A stretch of 37,597 nt of DNA from Cyanobacteria bacterium SW_9_44_58. GTDB taxonomy: Bacteria; Cyanobacteriota; Cyanobacteriia; Cyanobacteriales; Rubidibacteraceae. The notes under the pieces are model-generated. The model was not told where the DNA came from. It saw nothing but the letters and a program-made list of their open reading frames with translations, and did not search any database. Positions within the stretch are counted from its first letter, which is position 1; each line of letters opens with the position of its first letter. Where the stretch lies: positions 1,992-39,588 of the forward strand of contig PXPI01000029.1 of the NCBI GenBank assembly GCA_003021905.1, in the 5' to 3' direction. Made by a program: the position numbers and the translations under genes. Positions 1-37,597 of the stretch are shown piece after piece.

Positions 1-92
1 AATTATCGGTTTGCCCGGGTTCAAGATATCGAGTCTTTCAGCCCGGCGCGCCTTATATCCAAGGTCTAAAGACGCTTGGTTTTACGGCGCCT
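1..92 (-). mobile_element. Left end (LE) of an IS200/IS605-type element running off the window
   Basis: Read on the minus strand, this stretch resembles the left end of the TnpB element at 34451. Both share GCCGTAAAACCAAG, then a hairpin, then GGATATAAGGCG. The hairpin occupies 59-79: CCAAG/CTTGG plus GTCT/AGAC with a single bulged base and a 2-nt loop. A second stem pairs 13-19 with 42-47 (CCGGG/CCCGG core). The body of the element, with any transposase or TnpB gene, would lie to the left of position 1 on the minus strand and cannot be seen. The outer boundary near 92 is an estimate from the alignment of the two ends. Confidence 0.65.
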
Positions 93-109
93 TTCTATAG
101 CAGATACAG

Positions 110-34429: not shown

Positions 34430-34468
34430 GATATTAGGGATAAGCTTATCAAAGAAGTCGCCGTAAAA

Positions 34469-34533
34469 CCAAGTGGCTTTAGCCCTTGGATATAAGGCGA
34501 GCTAACTGAAAGGTTCAACACCTTGAAGTTAGC
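34469..34533 (+). repeat. Left-end hairpins of the TnpB element
   Basis: Hairpin 1 pairs CCAAG (34469-34473) with CTTGG (34485-34489) and GGCT (34475-34478) with AGCC (34481-34484), leaving one bulged T and a TT loop. Hairpin 2 pairs GCTAACT (34501-34507) with AGTTAGC (34527-34533), with an inner AGG/CCT stem. Both have counterparts of the same shape but different sequence at 1-92. Confidence 0.75.
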
Positions 34534-34578
34534 AAATCCGTCTATTTTGTGTTAAAATAATACTGTACTCTTTAATGA

Positions 34579-35705
34579 ATGATAATGTTAAAAGCGTTCA
34601 AGTATAGAATCTATCCCACTCAAGAGCAACAAGTCTTGCTTGCCAAGTCTTTTGGCTGTTGTCGGTTTTTCTATAACTACGCTTTGAATCGAACCTCCCA
34701 AACCTACAAAGAAACGGGCAAGGGGTTGAGCCGCAATCAAATCATTAATCTTCTTCCTGATCTGAAAAAAGAATATGAATGGTTAACTAAAGCTCCTTCT
34801 CAAGCTCTCCAACAGGTAGCTCTGAATTTGTCCAGCGCTTTCCTCAATTTCTTTGAGGCTCGGGCAAGGTATCCCCGATTCAAAAAGAAACAGAACCGTC
34901 AATCATTAAGACTCCCTCAAGGTTTACGGTTTCTCAAACACCATCGGGGCAATACTATGCCAGTTGCCTATTTGATGATGGAAAGGAGATACCAGAGAAA
35001 AGTGCTGATGGAAAAGCAATTGGAATAGACCTTGGCTTAAATGAATTTGCTATCACCAGCGATGGGAGCAAGCATGGCAGTCCCAAATCCTATCGGAAGT
35101 ATGAGCGGAAGTTAGCCAGCAAACAGAAAGACCTTAGTCGTAAGCAAAGAGGTTCCAATCACCGTAGAAAGGCACGAGTGAAAGTAGCGAGAGTCCATGA
35201 AAAGATTACTCGCTGTCGAGAAGATTTTTGCCACAAACTAAGCCGCAATTTAGTTGACGAAAACCAAGTCATCGTGGTGGAAAATTTGGCAGTGAACAAT
35301 CTGGTACGGAACTCAAAACTAGCTAAGTCAATCAGCGATGCTGGTTGGGGTCAGTTTTTAACCATGCTCAAATATAAGGCAGAGTGGGAAGGAAAAACCT
35401 ATATTGAGGTTGACCGTTTCTTTCCCAGTTCTAAAACCTGTCATCACTGCTTGTATCAAGTGGACTCACTACCTCTAGAAATCAGAAATTGGGAATGCCC
35501 TAGCTGTGGAACTCAACACGATAGGGATATTAACGCAGCTAGAAACATCCGAAATGAAGGATTGCGGAGTTTGCAAGTGCGTAATTTCGAGGTTTCCTCG
35601 AAATGCAAGACGCACTCAAGACAGGCGGCGGGGCGCGTCGCAGCAGCTTCTGGACAGCGAGTAAGACCAGCTAAAGGCACTGCTTTTAGTAGCATCGCTG
35701 GATGA
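34579..35705 (+). pseudogene. tnpB: TnpB-type RNA-guided nuclease gene, frame-disrupted
   Basis: The N-terminal frame from 34579 reads MLKAFKYRIYPTQEQQ...FFYNYALNR...YPRFKKKQNRQS, the classic TnpB wedge/helical region. Near 34920-34929 the sense frame changes. The second frame runs from about 34929 (VSQTPSGQYYAS) through the RuvC-I motif IGIDLGLNEFA, RKARVKVARVHEKI, RuvC-II VIVVENLAV, and zinc finger CHHC...CPSC. It continues to RuvC-III DRDINAARN, ending at 35705. All three catalytic acids are present. Compared with full-length relatives (~400 residues), roughly 30-45 residues before the TVS/QTPSG strand seem to be missing, which explains the frame switch. A single functional protein is therefore unlikely. 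Confidence 0.85.
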
Positions 35706-35764
35706 AGGAAGAATCCCACTGCCTTCAGGCGTGGGAGTCGTCAATAGCACTCGCCGTTTGGAGT
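35600..35764 (+). ncRNA. Inferred omega (re) RNA region of the TnpB element
   Basis: In TnpB systems the guide RNA scaffold comes from the tnpB 3' end and right end, with the guide being the flank just after the element. Here the scaffold would cover roughly 35600-35744, including the right-end hairpin 35714-35736 (TCCCAC/GTGGGA plus GCCT/AGGC with one bulged T). The guide would begin at 35745. The placement is by family rule only; no promoter was seen and both limits are approximate. Confidence 0.35.
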
Positions 35765-36879: not shown

Positions 36880-37484
36880 TTAATTCTTTACACGTAAGTC
36901 CTGATTCAGTCGTAGCTCAATATTATCACCAGGTTCCAGTGCAATCAGTGTAGAACGATACCCCTGACGGTCATTGTCTAGAATTTGTTCCATAATCACT
37001 TTTGCCGCTTCAGTGATAATATCCGCGTCTGAGAGGTCTCGTCGGAGGTTTCGATTGCCATCAATAACCTGCGACGTTGCATCCAGGCGATAGCGTCTGC
37101 CATTGCACAATTCGATATAACGGGCAAAAAACCGTACGCCCTCTCCGGCAGGGCGAAATTCTCCCCTAATTGGCGCACCTTCGGGGATTACAATTTCATT
37201 GGATCTTCCTCACAGACTGTTATTTAAATAAAGGGTCAGTTCATACCGTTCATTCCGGCGAAAAACCACCGACCGGTTACCGCGATATTCTGTATCGAAA
37301 AATCTACCGGATTCGATGGGTCCAACGCGATATTTCGATCATCCTTATACTCATCACGATTGTCGTAGCCATTATCATAATCTTCTCTGCCGCGATCGCG
37401 ATTTAAACGGTCGCAAGCCCGTTCATTTCCTTTGAATTTGACGCTCCAACGGAAGCCAGCGCGTTGGATTCTTGAGCTAATCAC
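36880..37484 (-). pseudogene. Broken gene of unknown function at the right edge
   Basis: The C-terminal frame (36880 to 37209) encodes NEIVIPEGAPIRGEFRPAG, RRYRLDATSQVIDG and the end LRVKN. Directly upstream in the same frame is a TGA at 37212-37210, then another coherent stretch (RGNRSVVFRRNERYELTLYL) back to a stop at 37341. A further coherent Asp/Arg/Asn-rich stretch up to 37484 lies in a different frame. Joining these needs one read-through and one frameshift; the run of five Ts (minus strand, 37302-37298) is a likely slip point. The IPxGxxIxG pattern resembles beta-rich secreted cyanobacterial proteins. Pseudogene or sequencing error cannot be separated here. The tail 37485-37597 shows nothing recognisable. 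Confidence 0.5.
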
Positions 37485-37597
37485 TGCCCTTTTGGGTTGC
37501 CCCTACTGAGGTCTGACACGATTCTGTCCGACCCGAACCTACTAGAATATCACTTGCTATCTAGATGTCCGCTTGAGGGTAGCTCTCCAAGCGTTGT

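Follow-up and report, generated by a model that had tools for sequence, protein, structure and literature searches.

A covarying second hairpin and an outer helix in the left ends of cyanobacterial IS200/IS605-type elements

Left ends and their elements in the window

The window, i.e. the whole stretch of 37,597 nt that was analysed (positions 1992-39588 of contig C29 of G000, hereafter the own genome), contains two left ends (LEs) of different IS200/IS605-type elements. Copy A lay at the left edge of the window (1-100, minus strand), and copy B opened a tnpB-only, IS1341-like element on the plus strand (34446-35744), made up of an LE, an interrupted tnpB and a right end (RE). In both, the two successive hairpins placed there by a first-pass annotation, hp1 and hp2, folded with the stems it had described; what it overlooked was a third, outer helix, P1, which encloses hp1 and a guide-like GTAAAA. 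According to a MAFFT alignment and folding of 15 own-genome copies, the order on the top (tnpB-sense) strand was tetranucleotide, linker, P1 5' arm, GTAAAA, hp1, ATATAA, P1 3' arm and, with no gap, hp2.

In copy A (minus strand throughout), the likely cleavage/target tetranucleotide was CTAT (97-100), assigned by comparison with the remaining LEs of the own genome, most of which have TTAT at the corresponding site. A 6-nt linker separated it from the P1 5' arm GCGCC (86-90), which folded with GGCGC (48-52) into a helix that covaries. The alignment placed GTAAAA (80-85) in the internal loop between P1 and hp1; its role as a guide is proposed by analogy with IS608 as described in the Figure 1 legend of PMC5934647. 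Folding, alignment and covariation all identified hp1 as CCAAG-C-GTCT-TT-AGAC-CTTGG (59-79). The hp2 of copy A (13-47; CCGGG/CCCGG), defined by folding and own-genome comparison, looks like a slightly damaged version of the 8-position stem with a G-G mismatch found in its relatives L007 and L012. The single-stranded fold had an energy of -17.0 kcal/mol with z = -2.7 under DNA parameters, and z = -3.1 under RNA parameters.

The element behind copy A is short: its middle is an N-run directly left of the window, followed by the RE, and ~290 nt separate the two ends with the N-run counted at face value. Neither tnpA nor tnpB was present in the assembled parts, and since the interior is an N-run and the RE is ~290 nt away, copy A does not, to the extent that it is assembled, belong to a tnpB element. 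A further short element of copy A's type had its RE at 37438-37471 (minus strand); this third copy bounds the window at the right, and its RE half covers 37438-37597. The window is cut out between the N-runs of these two same-type elements (window 1-92 and 37438-37597), whose copies may have been collapsed in the assembly.

The LE of copy B (plus strand throughout) began with TTAT (34446-34449), likely the cleavage/target tetranucleotide; TTAT and TCAA are among the sites given in the consulted part of PMC9956272, with TTAT as an LE cleavage site. After a linker of 8 nt followed the P1 5' arm TCGCC (34458-34462), GTAAAA (34463-34468), hp1 CCAAG-T-GGCT-TT-AGCC-CTTGG (34469-34489), the P1 3' arm GGCGA (34496-34500) and hp2 GCTAACT-GA-AAGGT-TCAAC-ACCTT-GA-AGTTAGC (34501-34533). 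The outer hp1 stem, CCAAG/CTTGG, is therefore common to both copies, while the inner stem is GTCT/AGAC in copy A and GGCT/AGCC in copy B. A promoter was predicted at 34529-34558 (-35 TTAGCA and extended -10 TGTTAAAAT, 9 of 12 consensus letters), the -35 hexamer (34529-34534) overlapping the 3' arm of hp2; this was one of three promoter-like sites in the copy B stretch, where 0.6 were expected, and the other two lay on the opposite strand. The interrupted tnpB (34579-35705) comprised two ORFs, 34579-35028 with the Pfam domain HTH_OrfB_IS605, and 35178-35705 with Cas12f1-like_TNB and OrfB_IS605. The RE (35711-35744) consisted of GAATC, the hairpin CCCAC-T-GCCT-TC-AGGC-GTGGG and TCAA, and formed a single hairpin within the 46 nt folded. 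The LE of copy B folded at -20.4 kcal/mol with z = -5.1 under DNA parameters. No terminator-like site was found in the copy B stretch, and an intrinsic terminator was rejected on this ground.

The annotation had also taken hp1 for a TnpA-type recognition hairpin, and we agree. The stem is bulged and follows the same plan as the RE hairpin of copy B, so that this element has subterminal hairpins at both ends, and a guide-like foot lies 5' of the stem. Sister copies carry a Y1 TnpA: a home-made profile detected an antisense tnpA close to the LE in nine copies (copy B has tnpB only), and Y1_Tnp (PF01797) was found in all three antisense ORFs tested. There was also a sequence match to the ISHp608 transposase structure and to 2xm3 (ISDra2). 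TTAT or TTAC stood ahead of many LEs, and the GTAA beside hp1 could pair with them (seen by eye, uncounted). Of the 40 tnpB-first copies, 25 had the RE motif GAATC-hairpin-TCAA at a distance of 1171-1347 nt past the model match. It was not found in the other 15, some of which lie in loci that stop short or may have a different motif. We also observed 33 matches to the TnpB C-terminus in the own genome vs 8 to TnpA, the best of the latter with an internal stop and the others fragmentary; own-genome transposition may rest on few TnpA proteins or on one from outside.

Covariation and the forms of hp2

Two sequences prove little, and therefore 21 BLAST matches in the own genome and 102 matches to a covariance model were examined. 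In the own genome, 14 of 24 pairs were changed on both sides vs 6.3 after shuffling (10 chosen copies, 9 of them distinct). When 120 genomes from the nearest relatives were searched with the model built from these 10 copies, 36 had matches (E ≤ 1e-3), one of them being the own genome with 29. A second draw, of 388 genomes from the class, gave 32 with matches (E ≤ 1e-4), the own genome once more among them. The set analysed comprised 100 loci, namely 10 own-genome BLAST loci, 30 loci from 30 genomes (one per genome) and 60 further stretches of those genomes selected from the model matches. The 102 model matches that they gave include two antisense readings of palindromic parts (L148 and L159, plus strand).

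Pairing filled 92.6% of the paired cells in this alignment (102 rows, 96 distinct, 30 genomes) vs 69.9% after shuffling. The covariation score was 0.524 vs 0.162 shuffled, and at most 0.078 when one side was slid by 1-3 columns. Changes on both sides were seen in 5/5 pairs of P1, 6/8 of hp1 and 11/11 modelled pairs of hp2. Being fitted to the model, the alignment is biased toward it, and the shuffle comparisons ignore kinship among copies. A second set, free of structure-fitted alignment, was chosen by the loop T[TC][AG]A[TC] at a constant offset from P1. With the two antisense matches dropped, 40 of 100 rows qualified (31 unique 33-mers), some of them one base out of register. In it, 79% of the 12 hp2 stem positions were Watson-Crick paired vs 48% with arms swapped, the maximum in 1000 swaps being 56%. 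An outer stem of hp2 with at least 7 contiguous pairs (G-T allowed) was present in 61 of 100 copies vs 7.2 expected from dinucleotide shuffles, and 46 copies had the modal length of exactly 7. This contiguous-stem count replaced a laxer one (at least 7 pairs anywhere; 91/100 vs 53.0 expected), which was rejected as too weak.

P1, hp1 and hp2 thus covary, and the folded top strand is conserved. The collection of further copies proposed in the annotation supported its claim that selection acts on the structure of hp1 and hp2 alike, and the hp2 pairs held among the 102 matches from 30 genomes. In 84 dereplicated rows, hp2 cells contained 31 G-T vs 8 A-C (24/6 in the outer and 7/2 in the inner stem), and the inner stem of the fixed-offset set 13 vs 2. 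Because G-T pairs exceed A-C, the top strand is the likely folded strand, with the proviso that the model itself tolerates G-U. This preference fits single-stranded transposition and sense RNA alike, and covariation alone cannot discriminate between ssDNA and RNA.

In the commonest form of hp2, a 7-bp outer stem was followed by a tandem opposed GA/GA, 5 bp of inner stem and the loop TCRAY. The class GTGAGTT/AACGAAC allows, by eye, another GA/GA within its outer stem. Another class (L143, L075, L079 and L176) is paired throughout, with 13-16 bp ahead of the loop, and a short class, GGTTAGC-GTAGGTACGTA-GCTAACC (L067, L070 and others), has 7 bp (6 bp in L069) and an 11-nt loop without TCRAY. In the loop-position set, the loop and the G-A step are conserved and the stem sequences vary. 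Positions 54 and 60 at the loop edges (T-A 16, T-G 8, C-G 5 and T-C 2 of 31) pair and covary, so that the loop proper has five bases. The B-box-like GGTTCRANNCC in hp2 had prompted the idea of a tRNA T-arm or RNase P substrate mimic. A T-arm would call for a 7-nt T-loop with T54 and a 5-bp stem on a 7-bp stem; the idea was rejected in view of the covarying pair at the loop edges and the variable stem lengths.

Conservation of the loop and of the G-A step goes beyond what masking of bases would need and hints at contact with a protein. They raise the question of whether hp2 is a left-end identity mark, with TCRAY loop, tandem G-A and near-constant length read by TnpA or another protein. The 13-16 bp of the fully paired versions and the single hairpin in the RE of copy B would suit such a mark; the short subfamily, which has no TCRAY loop, speaks against it, and we regard this explanation as improbable.

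Not every copy has an intact hp2. Apart from L013, L017 and L019, the 20 LE copies of the own genome (L020 and L021 being one) carry it, as judged by eye. The same inspection showed that hp2 is gone from L013, where the -10 is kept, that the inner stem is poor in L017, and that the type of copy A (L009-L011) is slightly damaged. In L019, and similarly in L064 and L139 from other genomes, the outer stem is by eye unpaired because the arms belong to two different sequence types, as if the copies had recombined with one another. Overall, hp2 was absent or broken in L013, L019, L064, L139, L154, L161, L081 and others. We also noticed by eye an extra hairpin-rich insert in L019, L020, L083 and L166 (three genomes), at a similar point in the interval between hp1 and the P1 3' arm.

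At the Rfam gathering score there were no matches within the window, and a scan of 17 LE loci at E ≤ 1 returned only two sub-threshold intron matches beside L002. A known structured RNA (HEARO or another Rfam family) was rejected, the LE itself having no match. The weak matches, to group II introns, adjoin the LE of L002 at a contig end (1608-1694, minus strand).

An LE-core pattern retrieved at least 118 stretches from Psychrobacter, Treponema, Desulfovibrio, Clostridiales, Chloroflexi and others, with a few from cyanobacteria. Among the matches listed, the one P1 pair not fixed by the pattern was Watson-Crick in 65 of 94 unique stretches vs 36.8 after shuffling (maximum 53 in 2000), from which we conclude that P1 with hp1 spans phyla. 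An hp2 with at least 7 contiguous pairs was found in 17 of 89 of the matches listed vs 12.6 expected, under somewhat laxer spacing limits than in the 61/100 count, and two of the 17 (L212 and L219) are cyanobacterial. As this is barely above chance, hp2 as a trait outside cyanobacteria was rejected. To the eye, the Selenomonas-type L209 and the Veillonellaceae L192 were similar here. Psychrobacter LEs such as L180, L186 and L226 showed, also by eye, a small CGACA/TGTCG hairpin that uses bases of the P1 3' arm, which makes this hairpin and P1 mutually exclusive.

hp2, gene content and the promoter-like -10

Beside the LE we found a sense tnpB, an antisense tnpA (then mostly with tnpB as well), or neither, according to home-made TnpB and TnpA profiles; the antisense tnpA near L138 was detected weakly. 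Elements with neither gene showed no evident cargo genes in the 19 loci viewed by eye, only ordinary-looking neighbours. In the antisense-tnpA set (9 copies), the covariation score was 0.626 vs 0.186 shuffled, with 8/11 hp2 pairs changed on both sides. The gene-less set (17 copies with an RE within 400 nt) scored 0.427 vs 0.154, with 10/11 hp2 pairs changed on both sides, and three of its copies (L133, L161 and L081) had no clear hp2.

An extended -10 (TGnTAnnnT) was located 20-85 nt past P1 in 28 of 40 tnpB-first copies vs 3.5 expected from shuffling. It was present in 14/14 gene-less copies examined vs 0.9 expected, a list that omits L161 and L081 by choice and L007, which is outside the 100 loci. 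In the antisense set it occurred in 0/10 copies, counting L143, in which tnpA was undetected and which joined the set by resemblance to L075 only. Where the motif was present, it lay 48-51 nt past P1 in 13 of the 28 tnpB-first and 10 of the 14 gene-less copies (23/42 together). hp2 is upstream of it and goes with the end, independent of any one gene and of the promoter-like -10.

These data bear on two alternative roles of hp2. The annotation had suggested that hp2 could act in control of the tnpB mRNA. In a broader form of that proposal, incoming transcripts would fold hp2 and as a result be blocked, cut or left untranslated for tnpB, as the 5' structures of IS200 reportedly do for tnpA. That precedent, together with a top strand in the mRNA sense, the excess of G-T over A-C and the strong RNA fold of copy B (z = -5.7), makes an RNA role conceivable. 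Against it stands the location of hp2 ahead of the predicted promoter: with the start site as predicted, an mRNA begun there would lack hp2, which ends before the predicted -10. Moreover, copy B has no terminator-like site, and covariation of hp2 extends to elements without genes and to those with an antisense tnpA. These observations do not support control of the tnpB mRNA, and we consider a role in RNA, including control through read-through transcripts, unlikely in general.

The second alternative places hp2 in the promoter region as duplex DNA or a cruciform that tunes transcription of tnpB or of a short-element RNA. The narrow placement of the extended -10 in the 23/42 copies and the overlap of the predicted -35 with hp2 in copy B are compatible with this. 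Yet the antisense-tnpA set keeps hp2 with no -10 in any of its 10 copies, the stem letters vary freely while pairing holds, unlike those of a duplex binding site, and L013 has by eye the -10 without hp2. We find tuning of transcription hard to reconcile with these data and give it little credence.

A separate observation concerns the short gene-less elements (L018:1583-1840, L007, L012, L121, L131, L166 and L147), which combine the LE module and the extended -10 with a conserved interior of ~210 nt, insertions left out. In most rows this interior ends with GATGAATTAAGAATCC ahead of the RE hairpin, and copy B ends similarly with GATGAAGGAAGAATCC. The own genome has 18 matches to the L018 interior, and Rfam gave no match to L007, L012 and L018, the elements scanned. 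Judged by sequence, these look like stand-alone omegaRNA-type guide elements without tnpB.

Interpretation and comparison with known systems

We propose, with a probability of about 60%, that the feature is the LE of an IS200/IS605-clade element working as folded single-stranded DNA, with hp2 as the counterpart of the second hairpin of IS608 in a cyanobacterial form accompanied by P1. On the exposed strand, TnpA would bind hp1, and P1 would hold the guide, within GTAAAA, in an internal loop. hp2, abutting P1, would mask the bases 3' of hp1 and stabilise the fold; as the part of the IS608 literature consulted proposes, it would slightly aid TnpA binding and keep the masked bases off the target DNA. 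With the bases past hp1 masked, only the short guide would then set the target.

The annotation had called hp2 not a standard part of such ends, and on this point the literature differs. The part of PMC5934647 consulted describes a second LE hairpin at +46 to +60 in IS608, present also in ISDra2 and in IS605 of H. pylori, which contributes little to TnpA binding and may limit target pairing. According to the same source, it is dispensable for cleavage and transfer in vitro; when added to an engineered junction it made a complementary target less often selected, whereas the wild-type junction with this hairpin opened showed no marked rise in such selection. In the consulted part of PMC2806898, cleavage and joining in vitro are described for an oligonucleotide of 59 nt that includes the first 39 nt of the ISDra2 LE, and the Halanaerobium IS605 has, in the part of PMC7290912 seen, a single LE hairpin. 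The second LE hairpin is therefore of a known kind; what looks new is its cyanobacterial form, along with P1. In the literature searched, which covers subscription journals thinly, we met no description of P1 or of second-hairpin covariation; with such coverage this is weak evidence of novelty.

Covariation, near-constant shape and retention in gene-less copies lead us to conclude that natural selection retains hp2 in cyanobacteria, and for this reason hp2 likely matters in vivo. Since, in the sources as far as seen, the IS608 second hairpin is dispensable in vitro and a 39-nt ISDra2 LE suffices for cleavage and joining in vitro, this selection exceeds the known role. These in vitro results count against our reading, as do the copies with hp2 absent or broken and the near-chance count of hp2 across phyla. 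One may speculate that P1 and hp2 form a composite ssDNA scaffold in which P1 clamps the guide and a protein recognises the left end by its hp2; the two ends would thereby be distinguished, and target choice would remain short and loose. We advance this tentatively, as possible rather than probable. P1 surrounds the target guide with an additional helix and bears on the choice of sites by elements that carry the TnpB nuclease. The covariance model itself provides a means to find the LEs of tnpB-only and gene-less elements.

Compared with IS608, as far as it is described in the source consulted, hp2 likewise lies just 3' of the main LE hairpin on the same strand. By description, it differs from the second hairpin of IS608, ISDra2 and H. 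pylori IS605 in the ~11 nt between hp1 and hp2, the last five of which belong to P1, in its commonest form (7 + 2 + 5 pairs with a conserved loop and a tandem G-A step) and in covariation across many genomes. The bulged hairpins (in copy B at both ends), the guide-like 5' foot and the TTAT-type left and TCAA right sites are those of IS200/IS605 ends; what sets the present LEs apart from those described in the literature searched is P1, in which the stretch from cleavage site to guide pairs with nucleotides beyond the 3' side of hp1.

IS200 also has stem-loops near its left end, and according to Beuzon and colleagues (1999) these 5' structures reportedly repress tnpA. The IS200 structures act in the tnpA mRNA, whereas hp2 lies ahead of the predicted promoter, whatever genes the element carries. 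Finally, the element of copy A, short, gene-less and with both ends present, resembles the palindrome-associated elements (PATE) of the IS200/IS605 family, of which a PATE-like element is described in the part of PMC7290912 consulted. Unlike PATE, as far as described there, the gene-less elements reported here keep a promoter-like -10, and one type has the conserved ~210-nt interior.
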